A model generated the notes under the pieces. It was given only the letters and a program-made list of their open reading frames with translations. It was not told the DNA's origin and ran no database searches. Of a stretch of 43,816 bases of DNA, positions 2,150 through 37,200 are shown in pieces. Within the stretch, counting starts at the first letter, position 1, and the number at the start of each line of letters is the position of its first letter. The stretch is from the NCBI GenBank assembly GCA_023957275.1, contig JAMLHF010000038.1, positions 1 to 43,816 on the forward strand, read 5' to 3'. Both the position numbers and the translations under genes were made by a program. The stretch is from Lentimicrobium sp. GTDB taxonomy: Bacteria > Bacteroidota > Bacteroidia > Bacteroidales > Lentimicrobiaceae.

Positions 2150-3334
2150 CTATATAAAAGTCAGGGCCACTTCCTTCAGAAACTTATCCTCCAGCAACCG
2201 GGCAATCCTTTTCACCACAGTGCGGCGGATTTCCAGTTCAACCGGCAGACTTGGATCCTGATGGGCGATGTTGATGCGTGTACCGATGATAAAATGAATT
2301 TCATCGCTTTCGATAAGCATTTTTACAATGCGGTCGGCAGGGCCTTTGGTAAGACGGGTAGAACTGCTGAATCCTTTAAGTATTTCGGTTACCTTCCCCA
2401 GGGTAAGGATTCCTTCGGTGACCAGATCGACGCCTTCCATCAGTGAGATTGGCGGCAAGTCGGGATCGTCGAAGTCGAAGGTATCTTCAATGCTGCGCTT
2501 CAGCTCCCTGGCTATGATATCCGCGGTGGTTGCGCCGCAGATGATTTTTTTACCGTCGAACTGATCCACCATGCGGGCAAACTCGCTGTCATTGCTTTCC
2601 TCAAACGGCGGGCCCGTGCACACCAGCATCTTTCTGGGCTCTCTGAAATAGATTACGCCGCAACTGGTATCATCTTTGCTCAGATACCCATCGTTTACAT
2701 GGGCCATATTGACCACTTTGTGGGCAAGCTGAAGCGCTGAAAGATCCGGTTCATGATTAACCAGTTCCAGCACATACTGCTGCACGCTGTCGCGCCCCCA
2801 GCCAAAAAGAAACTTGCCTCCGCCAAGCCCCGACTGGGCGACACCATCACTGAAAAATATGATACGATCTTCCTTCTCGGGAATAAATTCACAACTTTTA
2901 AGTTCTTTGCCGGCGCTCTTGCCGCCTTCAAGCATCACACAGGTCCACTCGGGTTCAAATATCTTCTTCCCGCGCAAAACAATGGTTTGCGGATTGTCAT
3001 ACTCAAGTATTCTCACCCTGCCATCAAATTCAATATCAATGATGGTAAAAGTGGAGTAACTCATCTTTCGCTCGCTGCATTCCGGCAGCGTATTCATGAT
3101 GATCTCTGCAATGCGGTGCATTTCTTTATGCTCGGCCGTGAAATTCAGCGCCATGGTAGCCGTCAGGGTCGCCAGCATATTTGCCTTTACCCCGTGCCCC
3201 ATGCCGTCAGACAAAACCGCCACAATGCGGTTTTCCTCATTGATCCGTCTTGAAAGGAATACATCACCACAGATGCGTGATTCATGATGATTTTTAAGCT
3301 CCGCGTTGACCTCGATATAAAACCTGTTATCCAT
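2150..3334 (-). CDS. SpoIIE-type (PP2C) serine/threonine phosphatase linked to a sensory hydrogenase
   Basis: A 394-residue soluble protein. Residues about 1-230 form a SpoIIE/PP2C phosphatase domain: the metal-binding motif VLSDGMGHGVKA lies near residue 40, and a second aspartate motif IIFFSDGVAQSG lies further on. The rest (about 230-394) is a predicted soluble extension with CTGPP, a conserved-looking MEGVDLVTEGI stretch and an RIARLLED tail; I cannot assign it beyond its repeated association with these phosphatases. The start is 9 bases past the stop of the PAS-linked sensory hydrogenase, so the two are almost certainly cotranscribed. The same pairing occurs in phosphatase-linked group C [FeFe] hydrogenase loci. 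Inference: H2 or redox state read by the upstream protein controls dephosphorylation of an unknown Ser/Thr phosphoprotein. Confidence 0.85.
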   Translation of the reverse strand: MDNRFYIEVNAELKNHHESRICGDVFLSRRINEENRIVAVLSDGMGHGVKANMLATLTATMALNFTAEHKEMHRIAEIIMNTLPECSERKMSYSTFTIIDIEFDGRVRILEYDNPQTIVLRGKKIFEPEWTCVMLEGGKSAGKELKSCEFIPEKEDRIIFFSDGVAQSGLGGGKFLFGWGRDSVQQYVLELVNHEPDLSALQLAHKVVNMAHVNDGYLSKDDTSCGVIYFREPRKMLVCTGPPFEESNDSEFARMVDQFDGKKIICGATTADIIARELKRSIEDTFDFDDPDLPPISLMEGVDLVTEGILTLGKVTEILKGFSSSTRLTKGPADRIVKMLIESDEIHFIIGTRINIAHQDPSLPVELEIRRTVVKRIARLLEDKFLKEVALTFI

Positions 3335-3343
3335 GCGCTTAGC

Positions 3344-5206
3344 TTACTTTTTGGCTGCCTTGTGCGACTCAATGATTGAATTGAGCATGCGCTCCGTTTT
3401 CGCGGCGCCTTCACCAAGCAGAAATGCAATTTTCTGGACCAGGTCAAGATTCTCATCAATCACTTCGGTGACCCTGTGGATTACTTCTTCTTTGCGGACT
3501 TCCGGCAGGTACATATCGCGCAGCACAGCGCCGGCGATTTTCCCTTTCCTGATCGAAAACACTGAAACATTCAGAAGGCGGTCGCCAAGATGCACATCGC
3601 GGTTTACCACATTCTCGTTGGTAGTAAGGACTGCAGTAAAGAGTTTATAAAACTGGAAAGGAAGCAGGGTTTTCAGATCCGCTCCAACCAGTCCGGGTAT
3701 GATTTCATTAATTTCTTCGGCATCTTCGCCCAGCGTATTGATAAAACTCTGATTTGATTCTATCACCTTTAGGTTCTCATCCACAATAACTATCGCACTG
3801 GGCAGTTTCTGAAGCATGGATGACGTTCTTTCAAGGGCCTCCTGTGATGCCTGTTGCTCCTGACGCGCTTTGCGTTCCGACTCAAGCAGGGCTTCCTGGG
3901 TTTTGGCCAGTTTTTCATTGGTCAGCTTGAGGGTTCTGATAAAATCGTGCTTGCTTTTCAGCGAATAAGTTATACACATGTCGGTCTTTGTCAGCCCCTT
4001 GGCAACATTCACGGCAAAATCCCTGCACGACTCGTAGCCACAGGCACCACACCCGAGCTTATCCTCACTGTTTTGCTTGCCGATCACTTTCAGGATTTCC
4101 TCAACTTTTTCTTCGCTTGGCTGAGGCAAACGCTGATCATCGACGGAGAATTCCGCTTTAAAGTCGGTCAGGTTGCTGTGTTTCTTACATGCCTTTTCCC
4201 ATGTTTTCAGGTCAAAATTCTTCAGCTTTTTATTGGCATAATCCGTTACCAGAGTTTTGCGCGCATACTTTTTACCGCCACGTGAAGTTCCCGGCCCCAT
4301 TAAGCAACCTTCGCAATAGAACAGGTTAAAATGCTTACGGATAAAATCAATGGATGATTCAAATTCACGGATGGCCTCCAGCACATTGTCTTTCCCTTCC
4401 GCAGTGATTACACTTCCCTGCATCAGATCCTCATCCAGGCCGGCTGCCTGAAGAATTCCGTTACTGACCGCGTAAAGCGATCCTTTATACCCAAGCGGCG
4501 GGTCAAAATCGGAATATTCAACCGTGCTTTCCTTAATGTTAAATTCTGCGAATAACTGCCTCAGTTCCACAAATGTAAGCACAGCATCAACCTTTGCATC
4601 GCCTTCAAACCGAAGGGCTTCATCCTTGGCTCCGATACACGGACCGATATAAACTACTTTGAGATCCTTACCATAAAGCTGACGGGCAATCTGCGCGGTA
4701 GCAATCATCGGACTGATGATGGGTGCAAGGTTACCAAGCAGATCAGGATGGAATTTTTCAATTAGTGCAACAATGGGCGGACAGTTGGTGGTGATGTAAT
4801 ACTTTCCCAGAAATTTGGTAAACAACTCACGGTATTCGGCCGCGACCAGATCAACCCCGAATGAAACCTCATTTACATATGAAAATCCGAGTTCACGGAT
4901 CATGCGCACAAATTTCCTGTAATCCGTAATATCGTCAAATTCACCGGAAATACTGGGAGCGACAATGGCGACTGTCTTTTCGCCTGAAGCCAGGAATTCT
5001 TTCACATCCTGGCAGGAATCCCTGTAAGTGATGGCCAGGGGAGCGCATACCTGAAGACAACTGCCACAGCCGATGCAACGGGCGTGTTCAACCTCCGGCG
5101 CTTCCTGATTTACCTTAACCTGAATGGCATTCACCGGACAGGCGCGGACACAGGCATAGCAAACCTTACATTTGGTCTTGTCAATATTAATCAGCGGAGG
5201 TTTCAT
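3344..5206 (-). CDS. Sensory [FeFe]-hydrogenase-like protein with PAS output (HydS-1)
   Basis: A 620-residue multidomain Fe-S protein. Residues 1-60 hold two [4Fe-4S] ferredoxin motifs (CKVCYACVRACP and CIGCGSCLQVCA). About 75-375 is an H-cluster-type domain with altered motifs: TTNCPP (Asn141 before Cys142), GPCIGAKDE, and YCEGCLMGPG (Cys298, Cys301). Near 390-415 is another Fe-S domain, CGACGYESC followed by MC. A coiled coil starts near Leu426 (LKLTNEKLAKTQEALLESE) and leads into a PAS domain at about 460-580. There is no kinase. The design matches group C sensory [FeFe] hydrogenases that act as signal receivers rather than bulk H2 catalysts. It lies between the thioredoxin-like ferredoxin gene and the phosphatase gene in one operon. 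The residue changes are described in the findings. Confidence 0.88.
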   Translation of the reverse strand: MKPPLINIDKTKCKVCYACVRACPVNAIQVKVNQEAPEVEHARCIGCGSCLQVCAPLAITYRDSCQDVKEFLASGEKTVAIVAPSISGEFDDITDYRKFVRMIRELGFSYVNEVSFGVDLVAAEYRELFTKFLGKYYITTNCPPIVALIEKFHPDLLGNLAPIISPMIATAQIARQLYGKDLKVVYIGPCIGAKDEALRFEGDAKVDAVLTFVELRQLFAEFNIKESTVEYSDFDPPLGYKGSLYAVSNGILQAAGLDEDLMQGSVITAEGKDNVLEAIREFESSIDFIRKHFNLFYCEGCLMGPGTSRGGKKYARKTLVTDYANKKLKNFDLKTWEKACKKHSNLTDFKAEFSVDDQRLPQPSEEKVEEILKVIGKQNSEDKLGCGACGYESCRDFAVNVAKGLTKTDMCITYSLKSKHDFIRTLKLTNEKLAKTQEALLESERKARQEQQASQEALERTSSMLQKLPSAIVIVDENLKVIESNQSFINTLGEDAEEINEIIPGLVGADLKTLLPFQFYKLFTAVLTTNENVVNRDVHLGDRLLNVSVFSIRKGKIAGAVLRDMYLPEVRKEEVIHRVTEVIDENLDLVQKIAFLLGEGAAKTERMLNSIIESHKAAKK

Positions 5207-5232
5207 AATAAAATCTTTCCATCAATTGATTA

Positions 5233-5535
5233 TCAGACACCCGAAGAGGTCTTCCCAAAAATGCCGTCCAGGATCATGATCACTTTGTCTTCATTCAGGC
5301 CGGTATATTCCTTACCGTCAATGCTGATAAGCGGCCCCTGATCGCAACTGCTGAAACAATGGGCGCCGTGAAAATATACCAGATGCCTCAGGTTCCGCTC
5401 AGTCAGGTATTGCTCTATCACTTTAACCAGCCGCTTGTTCCCCCTTGAAAAGCAGGAACTACCCAAACAGATCTGGATATCAATTCTGTTTTCCACCAAA
5501 GTTTGTATTAAACTATAACCAAACCGGAATAACAT
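5233..5535 (-). CDS. Thioredoxin-like [2Fe-2S] ferredoxin (NuoE C-terminal type)
   Basis: A 100-residue protein with the four-cysteine pattern of the NuoE/HydC ferredoxin fold: CLGSSC (C-x4-C) near residue 27 and HCFSSC downstream, with GPLISIDGKEYTGL after it. It lacks the helical N-terminal half of full NuoE (compare the gene at 5880), so it is a stand-alone electron carrier. It leads the operon with HydS-1 and the phosphatase, 26 bases before HydS-1. Inference: it passes electrons to or from the sensory hydrogenase. Similar four-gene clusters containing a thioredoxin-like [2Fe-2S] protein, a PAS hydrogenase and a phosphatase (hfs-like) are known in Firmicutes; here the catalytic subunit lies across the divergent promoter instead. 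Confidence 0.85.
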   Translation of the reverse strand: MLFRFGYSLIQTLVENRIDIQICLGSSCFSRGNKRLVKVIEQYLTERNLRHLVYFHGAHCFSSCDQGPLISIDGKEYTGLNEDKVIMILDGIFGKTSSGV

Positions 5536-5752
5536 CCGGAGTATTAACTTCCTTTACCAGGAGCTGCCGGCAAATGAAAAGATATCTGATGCCAACAACC
5601 ATTGCGAAATTACGGTAAAAATGCATCTGAAGCAACTTCTCATTTTTCAGGACATTGCTTACTATTACCGCTGCTGTCAGCCAAAACCAGCTATGTCGTT
5701 GATTTCCGCTTATCCTGACAAAACAAAATTACTACTTTTTTAGAAAAATATC

Positions 5753-5768
5753 TGTTAAAGGAATAACA
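5753..5768. promoter_or_regulatory. Rex-like operator, site 1
   Basis: TGTTA (5753-5757), six bases, then TAACA (5764-5768): a perfect inverted repeat. The known Rex operator in many anaerobes is TTGTTAA-N4-TTAACAA, and this site matches it apart from the first base and one inner base. Rex itself is encoded at 13663-14286 in the downstream run. Binding is inferred. Confidence 0.6.
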
Positions 5769-5769
5769 A

Positions 5770-5785
5770 TGTTAAAAAAATAACA
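5770..5785. promoter_or_regulatory. Rex-like operator, site 2
   Basis: TGTTA (5770-5774), six A residues, then TAACA (5781-5785). It has the same arms and spacer as site 1, and the two centres are 17 bases apart. The tandem pair would place two Rex dimers between the divergent promoters. The inverted repeat is directly visible; the regulator is inferred. Confidence 0.6.
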
Positions 5786-5879
5786 GTAATTTTATCCTCA
5801 GAAAATCATAAAAGAATGTGTTTCTTTTTGCTTTTCCAGGGCATTTATACTTGTTTATACAATTGAATATCAGCTAGCT

Positions 5880-6350
5880 ATGGCCGACAAGATTGATGAA
5901 ATCATAAAAAAGCACATCAATGTGCAACGCGACAGCCTTTTGCCCCTCCTGCAGGATATCCAGAATGAATTAGGTTATCTTTCGGAAGAATCGATCAACA
6001 GAATTGCGCGGTCGCTTGATCTTCCCACAAGCAAGGTATATGGTGTTGCCACCTTTTATGATCAGTTCCGCTTTGAACCCAGGGGTCGCTTCCATATTCA
6101 GATCTGTCACGGTACAGCCTGCCACATCAACAATTCAGCACGCATCATTCAGGAAGCAGAACGGCTGCTCAAAATCAAACAGGGGCAGACCACCCGCGAT
6201 GGCATTTTCAGCATTGAGGTGGTTAACTGCATGGGAGCCTGCGGACTATCACCGGTTATCGCTGTAAATGACACCTACTATCACGGCATCGAACCGGCCG
6301 ATCTGAAAGAAATAATTGAACAGTGTAAAGAAAAAATCAGCCGGCAATGA
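5880..6350 (+). CDS. hydC: NADH-dependent [FeFe] hydrogenase, NuoE-like gamma subunit
   Basis: A 156-residue NuoE/24-kDa-type subunit. The helical N-terminal half is followed by a thioredoxin-like [2Fe-2S] domain with ligands Cys76, Cys81, Cys117 and Cys121 (CHGTAC and CMGAC). In trimeric HydABC enzymes this subunit relays electrons beside the FMN of HydB. It overlaps hydB by four bases (ATGA), which indicates translational coupling. It is the first gene of the 5880-16047 run and sits just downstream of the Rex-like sites. Plain nuoE of complex I is unlikely because hydB and hydA follow directly. Confidence 0.92.
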   Translation: MADKIDEIIKKHINVQRDSLLPLLQDIQNELGYLSEESINRIARSLDLPTSKVYGVATFYDQFRFEPRGRFHIQICHGTACHINNSARIIQEAERLLKIKQGQTTRDGIFSIEVVNCMGACGLSPVIAVNDTYYHGIEPADLKEIIEQCKEKISRQ

Positions 6351-8293
6351 ATATTTTGAGCACAATGAATACCAAAGAGCTGGCCGGGCATTTATTACTC
6401 AATACCCACCCAGGCAATGATCCGGCAACTGAAGAATACATCAACAGGCTCAGACGCGACACCGTTGATAAGCCGGTAATTTATGTGGGAACCGGCACCT
6501 GTGGAATGGTTGCCGGGGCTAAAGGCACGCTGAAAGCCATCCGTCAGTATCTGTCCGAAAAAAGCATTGACGCGGAAATCATTGAAGTGGGTTGCATCGG
6601 AATGTGTATTCACGAACCAATGGTTGATGTTCAGCTTCCGGGCAAACGAAGGATTGCCTTCTCATGCATTACGGAAAACAAGGTTGAACCCCTGCTGGAT
6701 GAGATCCTCAACTATGAAGTGCCGGCTGATAATCTGCTCGGGCAATATTCACACCCTAATCATGAGGCATGGGACGGAGTAAGGTTGTTGGGTGAAATGC
6801 CGTATTTCAGGCTTCAAAACCGGCTGGTACTCAGGAATTGCGGGATAATTAATCCATATTCCATCGAAGAATATATTGCCCGGGGTGGCTACCGCTCGCT
6901 GGTCAGGGCACTCCGTAACTACGCGCCCGACAAGGTTTGCGAAATTATTGAAGAGAGCGGACTCAGAGGCCGTGGGGGCGGAGGCTTCCCTACCGGCCGC
7001 AAATGGAAAACAGCCCTGAATACACAGGACGATGAGCGTTTCCTGATCTGTAACGGCGATGAAAGTGATCCGGGGGCCTTTATGGACAGGGCAATTTTTG
7101 AAGGCGACCCCCACAAACTGATTGAAGGCACTGCCATTGCCGCCTACGCCGTAAATGCAAAGAAAGCCTTTATATATGTCAGGGCTGAGTATTCCATTGC
7201 CGTTGACAGGCTCAGGCAGGCCATACAGCAGGCCAATGACGCCGGACTGCTCGGTTACAATATCCTTAACAGCGGGTATAACCTGCAGATACAGATACGG
7301 GAAGGGGCGGGCGCGTTCGTATGCGGAGAAGAGACCGCACTGATTTCAAGCATTGAAGGGAAAAGAGGAACCCCCAGACCGAAGCCTCCTTTCCCTTCCA
7401 TCCGGGGATTGTTCGGGAAACCAACCGTTGTAAACAATGTGGAAACCCTGGCCAATGTCCCTGCCATCATCGAAAACGGACCAAGCTGGTTCAACTCGAT
7501 GGGAACTTCAACCAGCAAAGGAACCAAAGTTTTCGCCCTGGCAGGCAGAATTGCAATTACCGGGCTTGCCGAGGTTACCATGGGAACTTCCCTCAAGGAC
7601 CTGATATACATCATCGCCGGAGGTGTGAGGGACGGTAAGCGCTTGAAAGCCATACAGCTGGGCGGCCCTTCAGGCAGCTGCCTGCCTGAGAAAAGCCTGG
7701 ATGTGCTGATTGACTACGAAGCCCTGCTTGAAGCAGGTACGATTATGGGCTCCGGAGGACTGGTGGTGATGGATGAGGATACCTGCATGGTGGACATTGC
7801 AAAGTTCTTTACCGACTTCCTTCAACGTGAGAGCTGTGGCAAATGCATCCCCTGCCGCGAAGGGTCAAGACGCATGCACGAAATCATGGAGAATATCACC
7901 CGCAGGCCCGTTAATGAAAGCGGCCATGAAACGCTGGAACGTTTCAAAGGGGTTATGCAACTCGAAAACCTTGCCGAGGTGATCAAAGATACCTCCCTGT
8001 GCGGGCTTGGCCAGACAGCGCCTAATCCATTGCTGAGCGCCCTGAAATATTTCAGGGAAGAATTTGAAGAACATATCTTCGACAGAAAATGCCGCGCAGG
8101 CGTATGCAAAGACCTTAAGGTTTACTACATTGATGTTGACAAGTGTACAGGGTGTACCGCATGTGCCAAAAAATGCCCGACCACTGCCATCATCGGTTCG
8201 CCAAGGATACCGCATTTTATCATCGAAGATAAGTGCATCGGATGCGGAATCTGCTTTGATGTATGCAAATTCGTTGCTGTTTTTGTAAAATGA
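6347..8293 (+). CDS. hydB: NADH-dependent [FeFe] hydrogenase, NuoF-like flavin subunit
   Basis: A 648-residue cytoplasmic flavoprotein. In order: a thioredoxin-like [2Fe-2S] domain (GTGTCGMVAGA, then CIGMC), the NuoF FMN/NADH fold with GLRGRGGGGFPTGRKW and GSGGLVVMDEDTC, a [4Fe-4S] site (SCGKCIPCREG plus SLCGLGQ), and two C-terminal ferredoxin motifs (CTGCTACAKKCP and CIGCGICFDVC). This is the layout of HydB in electron-bifurcating hydrogenases, where FMN exchanges electrons with NAD(H) and ferredoxin. The start overlaps hydC; a second ATG six codons in is possible. ribF in the same run could support its FMN supply, though that link is only inferred. Confidence 0.93.
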   Translation: MNILSTMNTKELAGHLLLNTHPGNDPATEEYINRLRRDTVDKPVIYVGTGTCGMVAGAKGTLKAIRQYLSEKSIDAEIIEVGCIGMCIHEPMVDVQLPGKRRIAFSCITENKVEPLLDEILNYEVPADNLLGQYSHPNHEAWDGVRLLGEMPYFRLQNRLVLRNCGIINPYSIEEYIARGGYRSLVRALRNYAPDKVCEIIEESGLRGRGGGGFPTGRKWKTALNTQDDERFLICNGDESDPGAFMDRAIFEGDPHKLIEGTAIAAYAVNAKKAFIYVRAEYSIAVDRLRQAIQQANDAGLLGYNILNSGYNLQIQIREGAGAFVCGEETALISSIEGKRGTPRPKPPFPSIRGLFGKPTVVNNVETLANVPAIIENGPSWFNSMGTSTSKGTKVFALAGRIAITGLAEVTMGTSLKDLIYIIAGGVRDGKRLKAIQLGGPSGSCLPEKSLDVLIDYEALLEAGTIMGSGGLVVMDEDTCMVDIAKFFTDFLQRESCGKCIPCREGSRRMHEIMENITRRPVNESGHETLERFKGVMQLENLAEVIKDTSLCGLGQTAPNPLLSALKYFREEFEEHIFDRKCRAGVCKDLKVYYIDVDKCTGCTACAKKCPTTAIIGSPRIPHFIIEDKCIGCGICFDVCKFVAVFVK

Positions 8294-8318
8294 CCATGGT
8301 TGACTGAAACTGAAAGAT

Positions 8319-10043
8319 ATGAACTTCCCTATTGAAGTAAATAATAAAACGATCATTGCCCGGAGGGGAGAAACCATACTGGAAGCCCTGGAGCGCAACG
8401 GCATTAAAGTCCCTACACTCTGCCATATGCAGGGCCTCTACCCTACCGGTTCCTGCCGGATGTGCGTTGTTGAGGTAGAAGGCAAACCCAACCTTATTAC
8501 CGCCTGCTCCTACCCTGTGGAAGAATGGATGAAGATCCGGACACATTCCCCCAGGGTAGTGAATGCCAGAAAAACCAATGTCGAACTCCTGCTGAGTAAT
8601 CACCCCGATGATTGCCTTTACTGTGAAAGGAACGGCAACTGCGAACTTCAAAACTTCGCCGAACAGCTCAACGTCAGAGAGCGCCGGTTTATCGGGAAGA
8701 AGAACAAGTACAAAACAGACCCGTCGGGATCAAGCATTGTAAGGGATCCTGCCAAATGTATCCTTTGCGGACGCTGTGTCAGAACCTGCGAGGAAATCAT
8801 CGGCGCTGCCACCCTGGGGTTTATCGGCAGGGGAAATAAAACGATTATCGGACCTGCATTCAACAAACAACTCAACCTGTCCAGCTGTATTACCTGTGGT
8901 CAATGCATCATGGCATGTCCGACCGGAGCTTTGCATGAAAAAAGACATTCATCGGATTTACAGAGTGCGTTGCATAATAAGGACATTCATGTTGTAGTGC
9001 AGTATTCTCCAACCATCGCTGTGAGCCTGGCAGAGGAGTTCGGATTAAAGGCCGGTAAAGAAATCAACGGAATCCTGAACGCCGCCCTCCGGAAAACAGG
9101 ATTTGATAAAGTATTCGACAGTACTTTCGGTGCCGATCTTTACATCATGGAGCTTGCCGCGGAATTTGAGCAACGCCTTGCCAACGGCATTCAGCGCCCC
9201 CTTTTCAGCAGTGACTGCCCTGCCTGGATCAAGTTTGTGGAGCAGTGGCATCCTGAGTTAATCCCGGACATTTCCACCTGTAAGTCGCCCCAGCAAATGC
9301 TCGGAGCTGTCATAAGCAGTTATTATACCAAAACATACCACATCAACATCGACAATCTTTATACGGTTTCAGCCATGCCCTGCACTGCCAAGAAGTTTGA
9401 AGCTCAGCGGGAGCAAATGACCCACAAGGGAATCAGTGATGTTGACGCCGTACTTACGACCCGCGAACTGGCTCAGTTCATCCGCCTTAACGGCATTGAT
9501 ATTCATCAGGGGGACCCTGAACTTGCCGACTTTCCTTTTCATATCCGCAGTTCGGCCGGCAAACTCTTCAGCGTTTCGGGCGGGGTGACCGAAGCTTTGA
9601 TCCGTACCCTGCATTTCAGGCTCACCGGCAAGGAATTGCAGCAAACGCGCATCAGCGAACTAAGAAGTAACCGGGATTACAAGGAAGTGAAACTTAAGAT
9701 CGGTGAGCATAAACTCGGTTTTGCGGCTGTCAGCACGGTTAAACAGGCAGCGATGCTGATTGAAGAAATTAAAAACGGACGCAACGACCTTCATTTTATC
9801 GAAGTAACGGCCTGCCCGGGCGGATGCGTAAACGGAGGGGGCCAGCCCATCGTGGATGATCCGTCAGCCCTGAAAGCGAGAATAAAAGCCGTATATGATC
9901 TGGATGAAAAAGAGCCTATCAGGGTGGCACATAAAAATCCTGCCATCGTTGAATTATACAAGGAGTTTCTGGGCGAACCTCTGGGGGAATTATCCGTAAA
10001 ACTGCTCCATACTTCCTATAAAAAAAGAGATGTTTCATTGTAA
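8319..10043 (+). CDS. hydA: Catalytic [FeFe] hydrogenase subunit with Asp in place of the proton-relay Cys
   Basis: A 574-residue catalytic subunit of the trimeric NAD-linked hydrogenase. In order: a [2Fe-2S] plant-type domain (Cys35, 46, 49, 63), a His-ligated [4Fe-4S] (His95, Cys99, 102, 108), two [4Fe-4S] sites (Cys147, 150, 153, 157 and Cys190, 193, 196, 200), then the H-cluster domain. Its motifs are SSDCPAW (Asp299, Cys300), MPCTAKKFE (Cys355, Lys358, Glu361) and ACPGGCVNGGGQP (Cys499, Cys503). These numbers coincide with those I recall for Clostridium pasteurianum CpI. All four cluster ligands are present, so H2 catalysis is expected, but the usual proton-relay Cys299 is Asp. It starts 25 bases after hydB and is followed 12 bases later by the kinase-linked sensor. 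Confidence 0.93.
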   Translation: MNFPIEVNNKTIIARRGETILEALERNGIKVPTLCHMQGLYPTGSCRMCVVEVEGKPNLITACSYPVEEWMKIRTHSPRVVNARKTNVELLLSNHPDDCLYCERNGNCELQNFAEQLNVRERRFIGKKNKYKTDPSGSSIVRDPAKCILCGRCVRTCEEIIGAATLGFIGRGNKTIIGPAFNKQLNLSSCITCGQCIMACPTGALHEKRHSSDLQSALHNKDIHVVVQYSPTIAVSLAEEFGLKAGKEINGILNAALRKTGFDKVFDSTFGADLYIMELAAEFEQRLANGIQRPLFSSDCPAWIKFVEQWHPELIPDISTCKSPQQMLGAVISSYYTKTYHINIDNLYTVSAMPCTAKKFEAQREQMTHKGISDVDAVLTTRELAQFIRLNGIDIHQGDPELADFPFHIRSSAGKLFSVSGGVTEALIRTLHFRLTGKELQQTRISELRSNRDYKEVKLKIGEHKLGFAAVSTVKQAAMLIEEIKNGRNDLHFIEVTACPGGCVNGGGQPIVDDPSALKARIKAVYDLDEKEPIRVAHKNPAIVELYKEFLGEPLGELSVKLLHTSYKKRDVSL

Positions 10044-10055
10044 GCGTAAAACCTG

Positions 10056-12080
10056 ATGTCCATGAATCCCGACGATACAACTTCAAAACGGCCACTGGTT
10101 ACCACCATCAGGGAGCGGTGCAGGGTTTGTTACACTTGTGTACGCGAATGTCCGGCCAAGGCCATCAGGATCATCAATGGCCAGGCGGAAGTTATCCCGG
10201 AAAGATGTATCGGGTGCGGAAATTGCGTGAAAGTTTGCAGTCAGAATGCCAAAGTTTTCCGGAAAGAGATTGATAAAGTAAAAGAATTGATCAGCAGCAA
10301 TCAAAAGGTTGCAGCAATCGTTGCGCCCAGTTTTCCTGCCGAATTTTCGGAAATCAAGAATCACCGGTTGCTGGTATCACTGATCCGGGCCCAGGGATTC
10401 AGGTATGTATCGGAAGTTTCTTTCGGGGCCGACCTGGTTGCCGGAGAATACAAAAAAATTATCCAATCAAAAAGTTATCCGCCGGTAATCTCTTCAGATT
10501 GTCCGGCCATTGTAAATTATATCGAACACTATCATCCCGACCTGGTAGGATCACTGGCCAACATCGTTTCGCCCATGGTTGCCATGACCAGGGTCATGCG
10601 CAAAAAATACGGCGCGGATCTCAGGATTGTATTTATCGGGCCTTGTATTGCAAAAAAGGATGAATCGTCCGAAGTGGATGCCGCTATTACCTTCAGGGAA
10701 CTCAGGGAGATGATAAACCAACTGGGGCTGAAACCCGCTGAGGTAAGTCCTACCGAGTTTGACCCTCCGCTGGGAGGCAAAGGATCAATCTTCCCCGTTA
10801 GCAGGGGCCTGCTGAATACCATGGAAGTCAAGGAAGATATCTTTGAGAGGAATGTGATTGTTGCCGAGGGGCGCAGCGATTTCCAGGAAGCCATCAAGGA
10901 ATTTGAGAGCGGGCAGATCGCCCAGGAGCACCTGGAATTGCTTTGTTGTGAAGGCTGCATCATGGGGCCGGGCATGTCTCCCTATCCTTTTCTTTCATCC
11001 CTCAGCCGCAGGTTCAGAAAAAGGGCCAGCGTCAGCGATTATGTTATCCACAAGATGGAGACCATGAATATGGACCAGTGGGAAAAGGATTACAAAGAAT
11101 TTTCGGATATAGATTTGTTCTGCGAATTTACCAGGCGCGACATACGCTACAGCAGGCCTGACAAGGAAGATATCAAAAAGGTGCTGAATAAGATGGGTAA
11201 ATTTGAGCCGCAGGATCACCTTGACTGCGGTGCTTGCGGTTATGAATCGTGCGAGGAGCACGCTGTTGCCATTATACGGGGATTGGCCGAACATGAAATG
11301 TGCCTGCCATATACCATTGAAAAACTGCATAATTACATCAGAGAGCTGAACATCTCGAATGAAAAACTGGCAAATACCCAGGAAGCCCTCAGGCAATCAG
11401 AAAAACTTGCCGGGATGGGGCAACTGTCAGCCGGCATTGCCCATGAACTGAACAATCCGCTGGGCATCATCACCATGTACAGCAACATACTTAAAGATGA
11501 AGCTTCGCCCGAAGATCCTATCCATAAGGATCTTGACCTGATTGCGGAGCAGGCCGAACGCTGTAAAAAAATAGTAGGCGGATTGCTTAACTTTGCGCGC
11601 AAAAACCAGGTCAACTTCACAGATGTCAACATTAACCAGTTGATGGAACATTCGATTAGTTCAGTAATTGTTCCTGAAAAAATCAGCATCTCGCTCGAAT
11701 CACAAGTCACTAATGTTGAGATAAAACTGGATTACGACCAGATGACCCAGGTTTTTACCAACCTGCTGAAAAATGCCATTGAAGCCATGCCCGAAGAAGG
11801 CGGACTGATTACTGTCAAAATGCATGATACTATTGACGAAATTACAGTTCATATTGCCGACAACGGCACCGGAATCGAAGAAGAGAATATGAATAAACTC
11901 TTCACGCCCTTTTTTACCACCAAACCCATTGGCAAGGGGACGGGTCTGGGATTGCCGATTATCTATGGAATTGTAAAAATGCATAAGGGAAATATCACAT
12001 TCAGCTCGAATGCCGATAAAACCAGGGGGGCAACCGGAACCACCTTTACCATTACCCTCCCCAGAAGAGCAATGACCTGA
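10056..12080 (+). CDS. Sensory [FeFe]-hydrogenase-like protein fused to a histidine kinase (HydS-2)
   Basis: A 674-residue soluble sensor kinase. The N-terminus has two [4Fe-4S] motifs ([23 protein letters not shown]). The H-cluster-type domain has SSDCPAI (Asp148, Cys149), GPCIAKKDE and [10 protein letters not shown] (Cys297, 298, 301). An accessory Fe-S domain follows (CGACGYESC). A coiled coil from Leu431 leads into HisKA with the H-box [11 protein letters not shown] (His463), then HATPase_c with [16 protein letters not shown] and GTGLGLPI. No membrane span is seen. It matches kinase-linked group C [FeFe] hydrogenases, probably reading H2 or redox state. The N-terminal half is clearly paralogous to the PAS-linked protein at 3344-5206. 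Its nearest partners are the two receiver proteins just downstream. Confidence 0.9.
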
Positions 12081-12131: not shown

Positions 12132-12518
12132 ATGAAAAAGACCATTCTGATTGTTGATGATGACATGGATTACCTGTTCCAGATGAAGCTGAAGGTAGAA
12201 CAATTCGGGTTTGACACCATTACTGCCGATGGACAGAAAGAGGCGGAATCGATCATTGAAACTGTAAGGCCTGACCTGGCCATTCTCGACCTGATGATGG
12301 AAAGTGACGACAGCGGGTTTATCCTGGCATACAAGATCAAACGCATGTACCCCGATGTGCCCATCATCATTGCGACCGCGGTTACGGCAGAAACCGGAAT
12401 TACCTTCGACATCAACACAGATGAAAACAAACAGTGGATAAAAGCCGATCTGTTTCTTGACAAGGGGATTCGGGCAGACCAGCTGCAGCGTGAAATAAAC
12501 AAACTACTTAAAATTTAA
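12132..12518 (+). CDS. Stand-alone response-regulator receiver domain
   Basis: A 128-residue CheY-like receiver with no output domain. The acidic pair is in ILIVDDD near the N-terminus, the likely phospho-acceptor is Asp53 (LAILDLMME), a Thr is in IIATAV, and the conserved Lys is in FLDKG. The stretch between the Thr and Lys strands is somewhat longer than usual. It begins 51 bases after the HydS-2 kinase and ends 3 bases before the receiver-kinase hybrid. Inference: it is a phosphotransfer intermediate or a protein-protein regulator in the H2-sensing relay. Confidence 0.85.
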   Translation: MKKTILIVDDDMDYLFQMKLKVEQFGFDTITADGQKEAESIIETVRPDLAILDLMMESDDSGFILAYKIKRMYPDVPIIIATAVTAETGITFDINTDENKQWIKADLFLDKGIRADQLQREINKLLKI

Positions 12519-12521
12519 GGA

Positions 12522-13649
12522 ATGGCATCGTACAAAGTATTGGTGGTTGATGATGAAATGGGTATCAGGATGGGAACCCGGAGGATACTTCAGAACTTCA
12601 AAGTTGACTACCCCTTTATGGATGAGCACATAGAATATATCGTGCTGGAAGCCCCTACCGGGGAGGAAGCCATAGAAATCATTGACCGGGAAATGCCCGA
12701 CATTATTCTGCTGGACAACAAACTCCCCGGAATACAAGGCATCGAAGTGCTGGAATATGTAAAGAAAAAACTTTACGACATTGTGGTAGTAATGATCACT
12801 TCATATGCATCGCTGGAGCTGGCTGTAAAAGCCACCCGCGACGGAGCCTACGACTTTATCCCAAAGCCTTTTACCCCTCAGGAACTTCGCAGTTCACTCG
12901 AAAATATCACCAAACAGCTCTTCCTAAAGCGGATGACGCAAAAAATGAACAAGGAAGGAAGGCTCATCAGGTTCCAGTTCCTGTCAGTGCTTTCGCATGA
13001 ACTCAAAGCCCCTATCAATGCCATTGAAGGGTATCTGAAAATCATGCATGAAAAGCAGTTCGGCGACAATATCACTTCTTACAAGGATATGATAGATCGC
13101 TCACTTGAACGGATCAGCGGTATGCGCAGCCTGATTATGGACCTGCTTGACCTGACGAAGATTGAATCAGGCAAACCTGTGCAGCATATGCAATCGGTGG
13201 ATATCACAAAAATTGCAGGCATTTCATTGGATACAATGCGACCTTATGCTATCCAGAAGGATGTTGACATTTACCTCAACACAAAGGAGCCTGTCATGAT
13301 GGAAGCGGATCCCAAGGAGATTGAAATTATTTTCAATAATTTGATATCCAATGCAGTAAAATACAACAAACAGGGAGGCCGTGTGGATATTTTCATTCAC
13401 AAGGATAATAATAAGATCAGGCTACAGGTTGCTGACTCAGGTATCGGCATGACTGAGGAAGAGAAAAGTACGCTTTTTCAGGATTTTGTGCGCATAAAGA
13501 ACCCAAAAACCAAACACATTACAGGCTCAGGCCTCGGTCTTTCAATCCTCAAAAAAATTGTTGAAATGTATCATGGCGATATAGACGTTGAAAGCATCCC
13601 TGACCAGGGAACAACGTTTACCATAACCCTTCCGGCAGATAACTCTTAA
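12522..13649 (+). CDS. Receiver-histidine kinase hybrid without a sensor domain
   Basis: A 375-residue soluble protein. A receiver domain comes first (residues about 5-125; VLVVDDE, phospho-acceptor Asp65 in ILLDNKLPG, Lys in FIPKPFTPQEL). A HisKA domain follows with His159 (LSHELKAPINAIEGY), then HATPase_c (NLISNAVKYN, DSGIGM, GSGLGLSILKKI). There is no PAS, membrane or DNA-binding part. A receiver-first kinase is normally driven by phosphorylation from another kinase, so the HydS-2 kinase is the obvious candidate. The gene is almost contiguous with the stand-alone receiver before it and rex after it (13 bases). Its own target is not visible in the window. Confidence 0.87.
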   Translation: MASYKVLVVDDEMGIRMGTRRILQNFKVDYPFMDEHIEYIVLEAPTGEEAIEIIDREMPDIILLDNKLPGIQGIEVLEYVKKKLYDIVVVMITSYASLELAVKATRDGAYDFIPKPFTPQELRSSLENITKQLFLKRMTQKMNKEGRLIRFQFLSVLSHELKAPINAIEGYLKIMHEKQFGDNITSYKDMIDRSLERISGMRSLIMDLLDLTKIESGKPVQHMQSVDITKIAGISLDTMRPYAIQKDVDIYLNTKEPVMMEADPKEIEIIFNNLISNAVKYNKQGGRVDIFIHKDNNKIRLQVADSGIGMTEEEKSTLFQDFVRIKNPKTKHITGSGLGLSILKKIVEMYHGDIDVESIPDQGTTFTITLPADNS

Positions 13650-13662: not shown

Positions 13663-14286
13663 ATGATAAAAAGGCTACCCGATAAAACAGTTGAAAGACT
13701 CAGTCAGTATCGTCGCGCCCTGCTGAATTATTATTCAGGGGGGAAGCACCATATTTTTTCTCATGAAATAGCGAGTCTGCTGCATATCACCGCTGTTCAG
13801 GTAAGGCGTGATATAATGCTGATCGGTTATACCGGCACGCTGAGGCAGGGCTATGATGTGAAGGAACTCATTGACATTATCGGAAAAATCATTGATACCA
13901 GGGAAGGCCAGAAAGTAGCCGTGGTGGGAATCGGTAACCTTGGCCGCGCCATCATGGGATATTTCAGCGGCAAACGGACCAAACTTGCCATTGTGGCGGC
14001 ATTCGACAGCAATCCGGAAAAAATCAACCGTATTTACGCCGGGGTGCAGTGCTATCACAGCGATCAGATGATTGAAATCATCAAGCGCGAAGGCATCTCA
14101 ATTGCCGTTATTTCAGTTCCGGGCGAAACGGCCGCACAGGTTGCCGAAGAACTGGTGATGGCCGGAATCAGGGGAATCCTCAACTTTTCGCCCAAAGCGC
14201 TGAATGTGCCTTCGCATGTGTATTTGCAGGAATATGACATGATTACCAGCCTTGAAAAAATTGCCTATTTCGTCAAGAAGCCCTGA
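13663..14286 (+). CDS. rex: Redox-sensing transcriptional repressor Rex
   Basis: A 207-residue Rex protein. The N-terminal winged helix (about 1-75) carries the recognition stretch HITAVQVRRDIMLIG. A Rossmann domain follows with VAVVGIGNLGRA and AAFDSNP, and the closing DMITSLEKIAYF segment is typical of Rex. The family binds DNA when NADH/NAD+ is low and releases it when NADH rises, derepressing fermentation and hydrogenase genes. Its position inside the hydrogenase run, plus two Rex-like sites before hydC, suggests autoregulation and control of hydrogenase expression. The family call is firm; its targets are inferred. Confidence 0.92.
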   Translation: MIKRLPDKTVERLSQYRRALLNYYSGGKHHIFSHEIASLLHITAVQVRRDIMLIGYTGTLRQGYDVKELIDIIGKIIDTREGQKVAVVGIGNLGRAIMGYFSGKRTKLAIVAAFDSNPEKINRIYAGVQCYHSDQMIEIIKREGISIAVISVPGETAAQVAEELVMAGIRGILNFSPKALNVPSHVYLQEYDMITSLEKIAYFVKKP

Positions 14287-16472: not shown

Positions 16473-17909
16473 ATGATTTTTACACCGGAAAAATGCCGCA
16501 TTCCTGATCAAAGGATGAAACCGTTTATCGATGCAGATGAGTTGTGGGAAATCCTCAATGAAACCAAATCGGATAAACAGGCAGTGCGGGAGGTGATCGC
16601 CAAATCACTTGACAAGAAAAGACTGACGCTGCGGGAAACTGCCGTTTTGATCAATGCCAATGACCCTGAGTTGATTGAAGAAATCAAGGAAGGTGCCCGG
16701 GAACTCAAGAAGAGGGTTTATGGAAACCGTATTGTTCTGTTTGCACCGCTCTATGTAGGCAACAAATGCACCAACAATTGCAAATATTGCGGATTCAGGG
16801 CGTCAAACAAGGAGGCTATCCGTAAAACCTTATCTGATCAGGAATTGGTTCAGGAGGTTGAAGCGTTGGAAGATAATGGCCAGAAAAGGCTGATACTTGT
16901 TTACGGTGAACATCCTGAATATTCAGCTGATTACATTGCCCATACCGTAAGGACCGTTTATGGAGTGAAAAAAGGACCGGGAGAAATCCGCAGGGTCAAT
17001 ATCAATGCTGCTCCGCTGGAGATAGAAGATTTCAGGAAGGTGAAAGAGGCCGGCATCGGCACTTATCAGATTTTCCAGGAGACTTACCACCCCGAAGCCT
17101 ACAAAAACTACCATCTGGGCGGTAAAAAAAGGAACTTTGAATACAGGTTGACCGCGCTTGACCGGGCTCAGGAAGCGGGAATTGACGACGTTGGCATCGG
17201 CGCCCTATTCGGTTTGTACGACTGGCGTTACGAGGTGCTGGGCCTGGTGAGACATACAAACCACCTGGAAGCCTGCTACCATGTAGGTCCTCATACCATC
17301 TCCTTCCCAAGGATTCAAAATGCTTCAAAACTGGACCTTGGAACCGATTATACGGTTAACGATGAGGATTTTGCCAGATTGGTGGCCATTTTACGGCTTG
17401 CAGTTCCTTATACCGGAATGATCCTTACCGCCCGCGAAAATCCCGGGCTCAGGCATGAAGTGATTCAATTCGGCGTTTCGCAGATTGACGGGGGAACAAA
17501 ACTTGAACTCGGATCTTACTCAAATTCCATCAATGAAGCCCAGGACCTCAACCGGGAACAATTCCAGATTAATGACAACCGGTCACTGAATGAAATCATT
17601 GAGGAACTCTTCGAAAATGACTACCTCCCCTCCTTTTGCACAGCCTGTTACAGACTCGGCAGAACCGGAGAACACTTTATGGAATTCTCGGTTCCGGGAT
17701 TTATCAAGCGTTTCTGTTCACCAAATGCCATGCTTACCCTGGCCGAATACCTCGAGGATTATGCCCCGGCGAATACAAAGCAAAGAGGCTGGGAAGTTAT
17801 TGACAAGAACCTCAGCGACCTCCAGCAGTATCCCGATGCTGTCAATATCAATGAACTCAGGAACAGACTGGAACGCGTCAGGGGGGGCGAAAGGGACATT
17901 TACTTCTGA
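16473..17909 (+). CDS. hydG: [FeFe] hydrogenase H-cluster maturase HydG (radical SAM)
   Basis: A 478-residue radical SAM enzyme. The SAM cluster motif is Cys99-x3-Cys103-x2-Cys106 (CTNNCKYCGF). The C-terminal auxiliary cluster motif is Cys389-x2-Cys392-x22-Cys415, which separates HydG from its relative ThiH. HydG cleaves tyrosine to make the CO and CN- ligands of the H-cluster. Length and both motifs fit the family. It is followed by two TM1266-like genes, as in many hydrogenase maturation loci. The companion maturases HydE and HydF are not in this window and must lie elsewhere in the genome. Confidence 0.95.
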   Translation: MIFTPEKCRIPDQRMKPFIDADELWEILNETKSDKQAVREVIAKSLDKKRLTLRETAVLINANDPELIEEIKEGARELKKRVYGNRIVLFAPLYVGNKCTNNCKYCGFRASNKEAIRKTLSDQELVQEVEALEDNGQKRLILVYGEHPEYSADYIAHTVRTVYGVKKGPGEIRRVNINAAPLEIEDFRKVKEAGIGTYQIFQETYHPEAYKNYHLGGKKRNFEYRLTALDRAQEAGIDDVGIGALFGLYDWRYEVLGLVRHTNHLEACYHVGPHTISFPRIQNASKLDLGTDYTVNDEDFARLVAILRLAVPYTGMILTARENPGLRHEVIQFGVSQIDGGTKLELGSYSNSINEAQDLNREQFQINDNRSLNEIIEELFENDYLPSFCTACYRLGRTGEHFMEFSVPGFIKRFCSPNAMLTLAEYLEDYAPANTKQRGWEVIDKNLSDLQQYPDAVNINELRNRLERVRGGERDIYF

Positions 17910-31058: not shown

Positions 31059-31165
31059 CTAAGAAAATGGGCAATGTAAAAAAAAGTCTCATTTACAAAA
31101 GTAAATATTTAACTTAATCAATACCTTTGCCGCTTTTAATGCGACAGTCTGAAATTTCCAACATT

Positions 31166-32512
31166 ATGCCGAAGACCATTAAACTTACCAAAGGGCTTAA
31201 CATCAGGCTAAAAGGTTCAGCCGAAAAAAAGATTTCAGGATTATCTTCACAGCAGTTCGCCATCAAGCCAACTGATTTTACCGGTGTTTTCCCGCGTCTG
31301 CAGGTAAAGGAAGGTGACGGAGTGAAGGCAGGCTCCCCGCTGTTTATCGACAAGTACCGGGAGAATATTATTTTTACTTCACCTGTCAGCGGGACAATCA
31401 CTGAGATTAAGCGTGGTGACAAGCGTTTGTTGCTTGAAGTCCGGATTGAATCAGACGGGAAATACGAAGCCATAGATTTCGGGAAGGCCGATCCCGCTTC
31501 CATGACCAGACAGGAGATTGCTGAGAAACTGCTTCAAAGCGGTGTCTGGACTGTGATCCGGCAACGGCCGTATGCCGTGATTGCCAACCCGGAACAAACC
31601 CCCAAAGCGGTGCACATCTCCGCGTTCGACACCGCTCCGCTGGCACCTGATTACGATTTTATTGTAAGCGGGCAGGGAGCGTACTTTCAGACGGGGCTCG
31701 ACGTACTATCCAGGCTGAGCGATGGCAAGGTTCATCTGAATGTAAGCAAACAAACTGCAGCAAAAGAATTCCTCGGTGCGCGTAATGTGACCATCAATAC
31801 ATTTTCAGGGCCTCACCCTGCAGGCAATGTGGGGATCCAGATTCATCACATCGATCCGATTAACAAAGGCGACGTTGTCTGGTTCGCCGGCGTGCAGGAT
31901 GTCATTACCATCGGACGCCTTTTTATGGAAGGCATATATGATTCCTCAGTAACAGCTGCACTCGCAGGGTCAGAAGTTACCCGCCCGCAGTACTATAAAA
32001 CCAGGCGGGGCGCTTCCATCAGCACGATGGTAAAAGGCAATGTGAACGATGAAAACGTGAGATATATATCAGGAAATGTACTCACCGGGAAACAAATCAG
32101 GCCCGATAATTTTCTGGGATTCTATGATTCCATGGTAACGGTTATTCCTGAAGGCAATTATCATGAATTCCTGGGCTGGGCTTTACCCGGTTTCGGAAAA
32201 TTCAGTACCTCCAGGGCATTTTTCTCCTGGATAAATCCCTCAAAGGAATACAGACTGGACACCAACCTGCATGGAGGTGAACGGGCCTATGTGATGACAG
32301 GTCAGTTTGAAAAGGTACTGCCGATGGATATTTATCCGCTGCAGCTGATCAAAGCCATTCTTACCGAAGATATTGACCTGATGGAAAACCTTGGGATTTA
32401 TGAAGTTGAACCCGAAGACTTTGCTTTGTGCGAATTTATGGACACTTCAAAAACCGAGATACAAACCATCATCAGAAAAGGCCTTGAAATTATGCGCAAG
32501 GAGATGAGCTAA
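31166..32512 (+). CDS. nqrA: Na+-translocating NADH:quinone reductase subunit A
   Basis: A 448-residue NqrA, the large peripheral cytoplasmic subunit of the Na+ pump. Visible features: the opening KTIKLTKGLNIRLKG, FPRLQVKEGDGVKAGSPLF (a hammerhead-like domain), FSGPHPAGNVGIQIHHIDPI, and the closing CEFMDTSKTEIQTIIRKGLE. It is related in fold to RnfC but lacks its ferredoxin cysteines. The ATG at 31166 is preferred to one at 31127, which would begin inside a promoter-like box. It is first of six genes in canonical nqrABCDEF order. Confidence 0.94.
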   Translation: MPKTIKLTKGLNIRLKGSAEKKISGLSSQQFAIKPTDFTGVFPRLQVKEGDGVKAGSPLFIDKYRENIIFTSPVSGTITEIKRGDKRLLLEVRIESDGKYEAIDFGKADPASMTRQEIAEKLLQSGVWTVIRQRPYAVIANPEQTPKAVHISAFDTAPLAPDYDFIVSGQGAYFQTGLDVLSRLSDGKVHLNVSKQTAAKEFLGARNVTINTFSGPHPAGNVGIQIHHIDPINKGDVVWFAGVQDVITIGRLFMEGIYDSSVTAALAGSEVTRPQYYKTRRGASISTMVKGNVNDENVRYISGNVLTGKQIRPDNFLGFYDSMVTVIPEGNYHEFLGWALPGFGKFSTSRAFFSWINPSKEYRLDTNLHGGERAYVMTGQFEKVLPMDIYPLQLIKAILTEDIDLMENLGIYEVEPEDFALCEFMDTSKTEIQTIIRKGLEIMRKEMS

Positions 32513-32568
32513 GCAGGGGATTCAATGACACGAAACAAACAGAAAATTAAAAATCAATACGTTACTGA

Positions 32569-33726: not shown

Positions 33727-33757
33727 AATCAACCCAAATTTAAAACACATCGTAATC

Positions 33758-35172: not shown

Positions 35173-35198
35173 TCAATCACCCAATACACAGACTGATT

Positions 35199-35816: not shown

Positions 35817-35857
35817 GATAACAGGAATTAATTTAATTAACAGAGAAAAATACTGCC

Positions 35858-37102: not shown

Positions 37103-37120
37103 CAGACTCCTGCCTCTTCG

Positions 37121-37181: not shown

Positions 37182-37200
37182 CACAACCAAAACAAACCAG

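Follow-up and report, generated by a model that had tools for sequence, protein, structure and literature searches.

The divergent hydrogenase locus and its distribution

The present work concerns a locus in a 43,816-nucleotide stretch of the genome of Lentimicrobium sp. (contig JAMLHF010000038.1 of assembly GCA_023957275.1; the whole stretch is referred to below as the window), in which the genes of the [FeFe] hydrogenase HydABC are flanked by the genes of two hydrogenase-like putative sensors, HydS-1 and HydS-2. On the minus strand lie the HydS-1 gene (3344-5206, from its open reading frame and Pfam), a SpoIIE/PP2C phosphatase gene located 9 bp from it (2150-3334, from Pfam and a fold match), and, 26 bp upstream of HydS-1, a gene for a small thioredoxin-like [2Fe-2S] protein (5233-5535, from Pfam), which gene maps identify as the usual companion of HydS-1 and the phosphatase; because of these short spacings the three genes are likely to form one operon. 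A divergent gap of 344 bp (5536-5879) separates the [2Fe-2S] gene from hydC (5880-6350), the first of a series of plus-strand genes which continues with hydB, encoding the NADH/FMN subunit (6347-8293), hydA, encoding the catalytic group A [FeFe] hydrogenase (8319-10043, from Pfam and NCBIfam), HydS-2 (10056-12080, from its open reading frame and Pfam), a stand-alone receiver (REC; 12132-12518), a REC-histidine kinase (12522-13649), and, as the last gene of the operon, the redox-sensing repressor Rex (13663-14286; NF003995, 198 bits against a cut-off of 126); the HydC, HydB and two receiver assignments come from Pfam. The H-cluster maturase HydG is encoded further downstream on the same strand (16473-17909; 508.6 bits against a cut-off of 312). 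The original prediction, which had been made from the sequence alone, correctly gave the reading frames, strands and domains of both sensors, as judged by open reading frame calls and Pfam, and its divergent arrangement with a shared promoter gap is borne out; the Rex-like operators in that gap, the two receiver genes, rex and hydG go beyond it.

Both sensors possess the features of group C hydrogenases, namely two N-terminal [4Fe-4S] ferredoxin motifs, an H-domain and a C-terminal Fe-S domain of spacing CxxCx4Cx16C, and in both these are followed by a coil. The HydS-1 sensor half (3974-5206) comprises the two [4Fe-4S] motifs (C13-C54), the H-domain (C142, C190, C298, C301) and the Fe-S domain (C386, C389, C394, C411), with Pfam matches to Fer4-type motifs, Fe_hyd_lg_C (5.8e-41) and FeS (PF04060), and it is succeeded by the coil (residues 412-455; 3842-3973) and by a PAS domain with a C-terminal helix (residues 456-620; 3347-3841). 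The Pfam match to PAS is weak (0.0036, under the curated cut-off), and is backed by matches of the AlphaFold2 model to the folds of PAS domains in the PDB (best E 9.9e-7); this model has a predicted local distance difference test score (pLDDT) of 55.8 overall and 70-82 in the PAS blocks, which makes it unfit for ligand geometry outside the PAS domain and the coil. The HydS-2 sensor half (residues 1-416; 10056-11303) carries C149, C197, C298 and C301, with an additional C297, in the H-domain and C391, C394, C399 and C416 in the Fe-S domain, and leads through a coil (residues 417-449; 11304-11402) to a histidine kinase (11403-12077) made up of HisKA, with His463 as numbered from the coil start, and HATPase_c. 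Pfam gives Fe_hyd_lg_C at 3.4e-48, FeS, HisKA at 2.7e-13 and HATPase_c at 9.3e-25, and no PAS match at E <= 0.01, the kinase standing in its place. Of the predicted outputs, the separate SpoIIE phosphatase gene beside HydS-1 and the histidine kinase after the HydS-2 coil are confirmed, the PAS domain after the HydS-1 coil is supported by its fold, and the coil likeness starts at residues 426 and 431 as had been stated. HydS-1 and HydS-2 are 40% identical over 527 columns (BLASTP, E 7e-139), and their sensor halves alone are 42.7% identical over 429. The earlier observation that Cys301 has the same residue number in both sensors holds as a number and fails as a meaningful one: C298 coincides too, but C142 and C190 are offset by seven from C149 and C197.

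The locus is conserved. Matches to HydS-1 at E <= 1e-60, HydS-2-type genes being among them, occur in 139 of 295 genomes sampled from the window's order, and at least 31 of the 295, as read by eye, carry the two sensor types together on a single contig, one on each strand and about 6-8 kb apart; with six further genomes of the same sample taken from gene maps (G024, G388, G405, G428, G484, G504), the divergent pair is present on one contig in at least 37 of the 295 genomes, under 18 family labels. Among the mapped regions, which like all the fetched regions were hand-picked rather than random, 36 distinct genomes contain both sensors; all ten genes are found in 29 of these, and in the other seven at least one of the [2Fe-2S] gene, REC-histidine kinase, Rex and phosphatase was not found, in part since the region ends. 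The gene maps thereby bear out that one HydABC is flanked by two different output chemistries, and that this condition is conserved. In a sample of the phylum 20 of 296 genomes match at 1e-60, the window's own genome counted, and among the matches listed for that sample only the own genome has two on one contig; that the pair might be unique to this genome was rejected by the order-wide sample.

Each side of the locus is also found without the other. HydS-1 accompanies a phosphatase without hydABC in the mapped regions L057, L058, L143, L144, L145, L148 and L171, and HydS-2 with REC lies beside hydABC, without HydS-1 in the mapped region, in L152, L153 and L155-L159, with the REC-histidine kinase next to it in six of these seven (the L159 region ends early). 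The locus can consequently be regarded as two cassettes, each able to stand alone. In several of the HydS-1-free loci a receiver-domain protein of about 165 amino acids is encoded upstream of hydC (7399-7893 in L152, and similarly in L153, L155, L156 and L158). Other doublings were seen as well: L151 (G570) has two divergent HydS-1-type sensors, at 4091 and 8658, some 3 kb apart, each with its own phosphatase and with no HydS-2 in the region, and L232 (G916), from a Verrucomicrobiota-seeded sample described below, has two HydS units of the PAS/phosphatase type, encoded on opposite strands some 6 kb from each other. The window's own genome has a second hydABC cluster on C60 (L170, 11246-18866), which includes a 141-amino acid RsbW-like ATPase, a PHP protein, a 183-amino acid HATPase, and a 458-amino acid HydS without PAS that appears group D-like by its architecture.

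Probable mixed ancestry of HydS-1

The history of the sensors was traced with three samples besides that of the window's order: V, seeded from a Kiritimatiellae genome (Verrucomicrobiota), F, seeded from a Ruminiclostridium genome, and I, consisting of other members of the window's phylum. A quick tree of sensor halves has 114 rows, from which the 52 rows of a careful tree were picked by hand, not at random; the long-branch rows V_L248_7078 and B_L157_1019 were left out of a 112-row tree. The second of these is a 1077-amino acid frame starting at 1019 in L157, with a divergent HydS-like sensor half, kinase-like segments and a very long branch. A third HydS of the window's own genome, of PAS type and accompanied by a phosphatase, a [2Fe-2S] partner and Rex, is found on contig C107 (L169, 1-7820). 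It lies beside an iron alcohol dehydrogenase and a 456-amino acid hydrogenase-like frame, and the group of genes resembles the Ruminococcus albus cluster as that is described in the available passages of PMC6776011.

The sensor and output halves of HydS-1 have conflicting histories. In the careful tree HydS-1 and HydS-2 form one Bacteroidales clade (98/92), which is joined next by the kinase-type V sensors (100/100); apart from these, a second clade unites the C107 copy with the phosphatase-linked sensors from the other samples (100/100). Close kinship of the two sensor halves, as implied by the original prediction, is thereby supported, and the possibility that they are only distantly related is rejected by this tree. 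In a tree of the PAS domain and phosphatase (45 rows) the HydS-1 output instead pairs as sister with that of C107 (99/98), and the two are nested among the V outputs. HydS-1 thus has the PAS domain and the neighbouring SpoIIE/PP2C gene of the phosphatase-linked clade, but not its sensor half. Approximately unbiased (AU) tests, designed with the quick tree already in view, reject the constraint that all phosphatase-linked sensors group together (log-likelihood difference 94, p-AU 1.2e-49), and give a difference of 172 with p 2e-7 for HydS-1 with the C107 type and of 113 with p 3e-5 for HydS-1 with the C107 and V types.

Characters that do not depend on a tree agree for the most part with this division. 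The distance from the last Fe-S cysteine to the PAS domain is 45 residues in 33 of 34 HydS-1 rows and 43 in the other, and in 33 other phosphatase-linked sensors it is 7 in 29, 5 in two, and -3 or -2 in two that have partial hidden Markov model matches; the extra HydS-1 stretch resembles the HydS-2 coil and is absent from the other phosphatase-linked HydS sampled. Judged by mean identity in 31-residue windows, HydS-1 is closer to HydS-2 than to the C107 type everywhere up to 434, except at 373-403; the windows at 435-465 hold no aligned C107-type residues, and from 466 onwards HydS-1 is nearer to the C107 type (0.30-0.47) than to HydS-2 (0.13-0.19). These identity windows place a putative splice region at about residues 435-466 of HydS-1 (3809-3904, minus strand), which includes the last part of the coil. 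The [2Fe-2S] partner, likewise, is nearest to that of C107 (0.40, against 0.33 for V and 0.25 for F).

HydS-1 accordingly looks chimeric, with a sensor half and coil of the kinase lineage and a PAS domain, phosphatase and [2Fe-2S] partner of the phosphatase-linked lineage, and the conflict between the sensor and output trees, together with the linker and the identity switch, suggests that it most likely arose once, through replacement of the sensor half in a phosphatase cassette; both the event and its direction are inferred from the conflicting histories of its halves. Plain paralogy, in which HydS-1 and HydS-2 would be duplicates and HydS-1 would have acquired its PAS domain and phosphatase from an unrelated source, accords with their standing as sister groups in the sensor tree, save for one row, but we regard it as improbable, given that the HydS-1 PAS domain, the phosphatase with its C-terminal domain and the [2Fe-2S] gene are all nearest to the C107 cassette among the samples and stand in the same gene order. 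It is very improbable that HydS-1 is instead an ordinary phosphatase-linked HydS which a long-branch or alignment artefact has placed beside HydS-2. Such an artefact would fit the quick-tree support of just 94 (SH-aLRT, the Shimodaira-Hasegawa-like approximate likelihood ratio test), the several rows that differ in letter make-up and the long branch of the V phosphatase-linked clade, but it is opposed by the AU tests and by the coil insertion, the identity switch and the short L3 loop of most readable HydS-1, none of which requires a tree.

Cluster ligands, output arms and the divergent gap

The canonical spacing of the L3 loop is CxxxC, and this spacing prevails in the phosphatase-linked clade where the loop is readable (V 13/14, F 11/13, I 4/4, C107 type 2/2). 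Kinase-type sensors have CxxC, a loop shorter by one residue (B 26/26, V 6/6, I 4/4, F 2/2), with a second cysteine that gives CxxxC as well in most B and V rows; L157_1019 was set aside from this count, as a misread, and also from the HydS-2 ligand counts below. The shorter, kinase-type loop is seen in 19 of 33 HydS-1 rows, the remainder having CxxxC in four and another or an unread loop in ten. In the window all four H-cluster cysteines are present in both sensors, and L3 is C-E-G-C in HydS-1 and C-C-E-G-C in HydS-2, so that HydS-2 has both spacings owing to Cys297. The residues corresponding to Cys299 and Met353 of CpI are replaced by N141 and G188 in HydS-1 and by D148 and G195 in HydS-2, at places that were matched by motif to PMC8163306 and PMC10055695 rather than by alignment with CpI.

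The ligands have fared differently in the two sensors. When identical sensor halves are collapsed (from 203 to 151), all four H-cluster ligands are present in 43 of 43 HydS-2, with Asp at the Cys299 position in 41; the own genome's HydS-2 is represented only by a truncated copy outside the 43. At least one ligand is lost in 16 of 78 HydS-1 and all four are lost in four, with Asn at the Cys299 position in 54, while the four cysteines of the Fe-S domain by the coil are kept in 78 of 78 and all eight ferredoxin cysteines in 62. On the tree, four changes are needed to explain the missing C298 (8 of 34 HydS-1 rows) and a single one to explain the absence of all four ligands (2 of 34). According to the available passages of PMC10055695, Asp is the exception among Cys299 substitutes that cripple prototypical enzymes. 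The claim that the two sensors read the same ligand is not supported by these counts, with ligands lost in 16 of 78 HydS-1 against none of 43 HydS-2 and with Asn in one and Asp in the other at the proton-relay position, and we read HydS-1 and HydS-2 as sensors of different character. That both of them sense H2 is an expectation drawn from their sequences.

It is possible, though it falls short of being probable, that HydS-1 is no longer a classic H2 sensor and instead responds to electron pressure by way of its ferredoxin and Fe-S domains, which the [2Fe-2S] partner may feed, with an H-cluster that is optional or being lost, so that HydS-2 alone would keep H2 sensing. The contrast in ligand retention just described, with the Fe-S domain cysteines invariant, speaks for this, as does the location of the ligand-free HydS-1 of L139 and L140 in ten-gene modules and the retention of SDGxGxG in the phosphatases beside the ligand-free HydS-1 of L139 and L148. 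However, the HydS-1 of the window and 61 other rows retain all four ligands, the full set of ferredoxin cysteines is kept less consistently than the Fe-S domain, and the phosphatases of L139 and L148 both miss DDxS, that of L148 also missing SDGV, so that these two may or may not be active.

In the kinase arm, HydS-2 should feed REC and the REC-histidine kinase. Among the kinase-type regions of the other samples, hydCBA, HydS, REC and the (REC-)histidine kinase stand in the same order in 3 of 6 from V and in 4 of 4 from I. A further kind of fused output was encountered in L253 (9081-11357), where a HydS sensor half is joined to a sigma-54 activator with a helix-turn-helix domain (Pfam), an output type that is unnamed in the available passages of the HydDB table; L252, L254, L261 and L265 have a similar P-loop-like start of the linker.

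In the phosphatase arm, the SpoIIE/PP2C Ser/Thr phosphatase domain, with motifs SDGMGHG and SDGV, occupies residues 1-232 (2639-3334, minus strand; Pfam and structure match). The structure model is good (pLDDT 82.7) and matches PP2C structures, the closest being 3pu9 (E 1.9e-13), and among the phosphatases that neighbour HydS-1 the motif SDGxGxG is found in 32 of 33, SDGV in 26 and DDxS in 22. Residues 233-394 (2153-2638, minus strand) form a C-terminal domain without a family match in Pfam or NCBIfam at E <= 0.01; it has weak PDB sequence matches, a predicted alpha/beta fold with a weak match to methylglyoxal synthase, and weak whole-model fold matches to 1vmd (E 0.028) and 8rja_B (E 0.013), and it is present with the HydS-linked phosphatases mapped in other samples (in L264 as a second frame). 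Because HydS-1 has no fused output and the PP2C gene begins at its catalytic domain without a linker, control would have to be exerted in trans, plausibly via the HydS-1 PAS domain and its last helix. The term opposite outputs, used in the original prediction, overstates the relation between the arms, since a His-Asp relay and a Ser/Thr phosphatase act on different residues by orthogonal chemistry and the phosphatase is a separate protein.

The usual targets of SpoIIE-type phosphatases are anti-sigma pathways. A classic pathway of this kind is doubtful here, because the only PF01740 (STAS) match of the genome is in a 611-amino acid frame. One might ask whether the outputs act not on transcription but directly on the enzyme or other proteins, by way of Ser/Thr phosphorylation state. 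The module encodes no DNA-binding regulator but Rex, PF01740 reveals no stand-alone RsbV-type STAS protein, and the second hydABC cluster on C60 contains the RsbW-like ATPase, all of which would suit direct action; PF13466 (STAS_2), however, lay outside the search, the assembly is 95% complete, and the usual role of such phosphatases tells against it, so that we consider this alternative rather unlikely.

Two palindromes lie in tandem in the divergent gap, TGTTAAAGGAATAACA at 5753-5768 and TGTTAAAAAAATAACA at 5770-5785, and they fit the Rex operator given as TTGTGAANNNNTTCACAA in the available passages of PMC5317091 and as NTTGTTANNNNNNTAACNNN in those of PMC5886521, which also report predicted sites upstream of hfsABCD and hydG. 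The palindromes are conserved: in 35 orthologous gaps 36 Rex-like sites were seen with at most one mismatch, against 0.63 expected from shuffles, in 26 of the 35 gaps, and 19 of the 27 gaps outside the window's genus have one. The locus thus combines a rex gene with palindromes of the TTGTTAA/TGTGAA type at a promoter, as expected for a Rex regulon. TGTTAANNNNWTAACA occurs exactly at seven distinct places in the genome: this gap accounts for two of them, and another precedes the iron alcohol dehydrogenase of the C107 HydS operon by 54 bp. In the C60 cluster, Rex-like palindromes that carry one mismatch stand some 60 bp ahead of hydC. A genome-wide enrichment of such sites was rejected, because 81 matches on both strands with at most one mismatch stand against 81 in the reversed control, and it is only the position at the gap which is unusual. 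Elsewhere in the window, frames at 31127-38220 resemble, by eye, an operon for a Na+-translocating NADH:quinone reductase followed by an ApbE-like gene.

Proposed working of the locus and relation to known systems

Taken together, these results make it likely that the locus is a two-channel regulatory module around HydABC, in which HydS-1 is chimeric and the gap is under Rex control. In the first channel HydS-2 would act as a cytoplasmic histidine kinase in which the H-domain and Fe-S chain lead down to the [4Fe-4S] domain at the foot of the coil; H2, or an electron pressure that mirrors it, would alter that cluster and turn the coil, and the turn would set the phosphorylation of His463, the stand-alone REC and the REC-histidine kinase, with the final output left unlinked. 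In the second channel HydS-1, a copy of the kinase-type sensor and coil joined to PAS, would act in trans on the adjacent SpoIIE-type phosphatase. HydS-1 would have originated once, before the sampled Bacteroidales families split, when the HydS-2 lineage supplied a new sensor half and coil to a phosphatase-linked HydS cassette, of the kind that survives on C107, in place of the cassette's own. Control of the divergent gap by Rex in response to NADH/NAD+ would probably lead to joint production of the enzyme and its two sensors at high NADH. The direction of the signals, the substrate of the phosphatase, and the binding of Rex and of H2 are inferred as parts of this model.

Several points weigh against the two-channel reading. 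Support for the HydS-1 and HydS-2 clade is moderate in the quick tree, the HydS-2 row L135 is placed apart from the remaining HydS-2 in the trees, and at residues 373-403 HydS-1 is 0.41 identical to HydS-2 and 0.43 to the C107 type. Eight HydS-1 of the wider set (L052-L054, L057, L058, L143-L145) have the longer L3 loop, which requires re-insertion, parallel deletion or some other history, and the presence of CxGC instead of CxxxC in many members of the kinase lineage means that H-cluster binding itself is unproven, a difficulty to which the loss of ligands from HydS-1 adds. The Rex pattern was chosen with the window's sites already known, and the consensus behind it was afterwards found in PMC5317091 and PMC5886521. 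Pfam finds no DNA-binding output besides Rex encoded in the module, and a search with PF01740 for a phosphatase substrate found none, its one match being the 611-amino acid frame.

A more specific version of the history can be offered only tentatively: Bacteroidales may have spliced an H2 or redox kinase sensor with its coil onto a resident phosphatase cassette and kept both copies around one hydrogenase, after which loss of H-cluster ligands, in places of all of them, moved the phosphatase arm from H2 towards plain redox sensing, and the kinase arm went on sensing H2 with Asp as its proton relay. If this were true, the locus would handle H2 and redox state as separate computations under the control of Rex.

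The double arrangement is not itself new. The available passages of PMC11406978 describe two bfuT genes around one BfuABC in three Bacteroidota, with group C sensors at both ends of the set, upstream of bfuC and downstream of bfuA, as in the window, where one sensor gene is upstream of hydC and one downstream of hydA, and call the implications "unclear". Those passages state no outputs for the three loci and mention no chimera, Rex sites or ligand loss; they class both PAS and kinase BfuT under C3, and treat the two as kinds that occur in Hydrogenedentota each in its own type of cluster. A literature search, which covered titles and the openings of abstracts, with subscription papers mostly outside its reach, returned no paper that describes the splice or the paired kinase and phosphatase outputs. 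What is new is that HydS-1 appears to be of mixed ancestry, that the H-cluster ligands have fared differently in the two sensors and that the gap carries Rex-like sites; the arrangement itself had already been glimpsed.

In the available passages of PMC5037454, HydDB assigns histidine-kinase-linked sensors to C1 and phosphatase-linked sensors to C3. Like the phosphatase-linked HydS described in part by HydDB, by PMC6776011 for R. albus, where a Ser/Thr phosphatase is adjacent, and by PMC5707799 for T. saccharolyticum HfsB, HydS-1 combines an H-domain with PAS, and the predicted Rex site upstream of hfsABCD (PMC5886521, in the passages available) parallels the window's gap; HydS-1 differs from the phosphatase-linked sensors in that its sensor half lies outside the sampled clade, from whose trees the named proteins are absent, and in having an extra coil of about 38 residues before PAS. 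HydS-2 corresponds to the kinase-type HydS (the HydDB C1 label, and the BfuT of sub-type V), with H-domain, Fe-S domain, coil and HisKA-HATPase beside HydABC, then REC and REC-histidine kinase, but the kinase-type sensors elsewhere in the phylum have Pro, Ala or Ser at the Cys299 position in 17 of 17, against Asp in the Bacteroidales HydS-2. Both window sensors can be likened, by description, to TmHydS and TamHydS, which in the available passages of PMC10055695 and PMC8163306 have two [4Fe-4S] motifs, an H-domain without Cys299 and with Met353 replaced, and CxxCx4Cx16C; they differ in an L3 shorter than the CxxxC of the phosphatase-linked clade, and HydS-2 in its fused kinase.

The locus may serve as a natural swap experiment, in which a histidine kinase is driven by one sensor half and coil and a phosphatase by their relatives in the sister protein, and it bears on how group C hydrogenases signal; the ligand-free orthologues within ten-gene modules would be ready-made controls for separating H2 from redox sensing. 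It bears also on the proposal, as set out in the available passages of PMC12143880, that coiled-coil linkers make sensors interchangeable between kinases and PPM phosphatases. As in that toolkit, a single type of sensor is here linked through a coil with a kinase in one protein and with a phosphatase in its sister, with the difference that the phosphatase of the window is a separate protein which begins at its catalytic domain, so that the signal would have to pass in trans.

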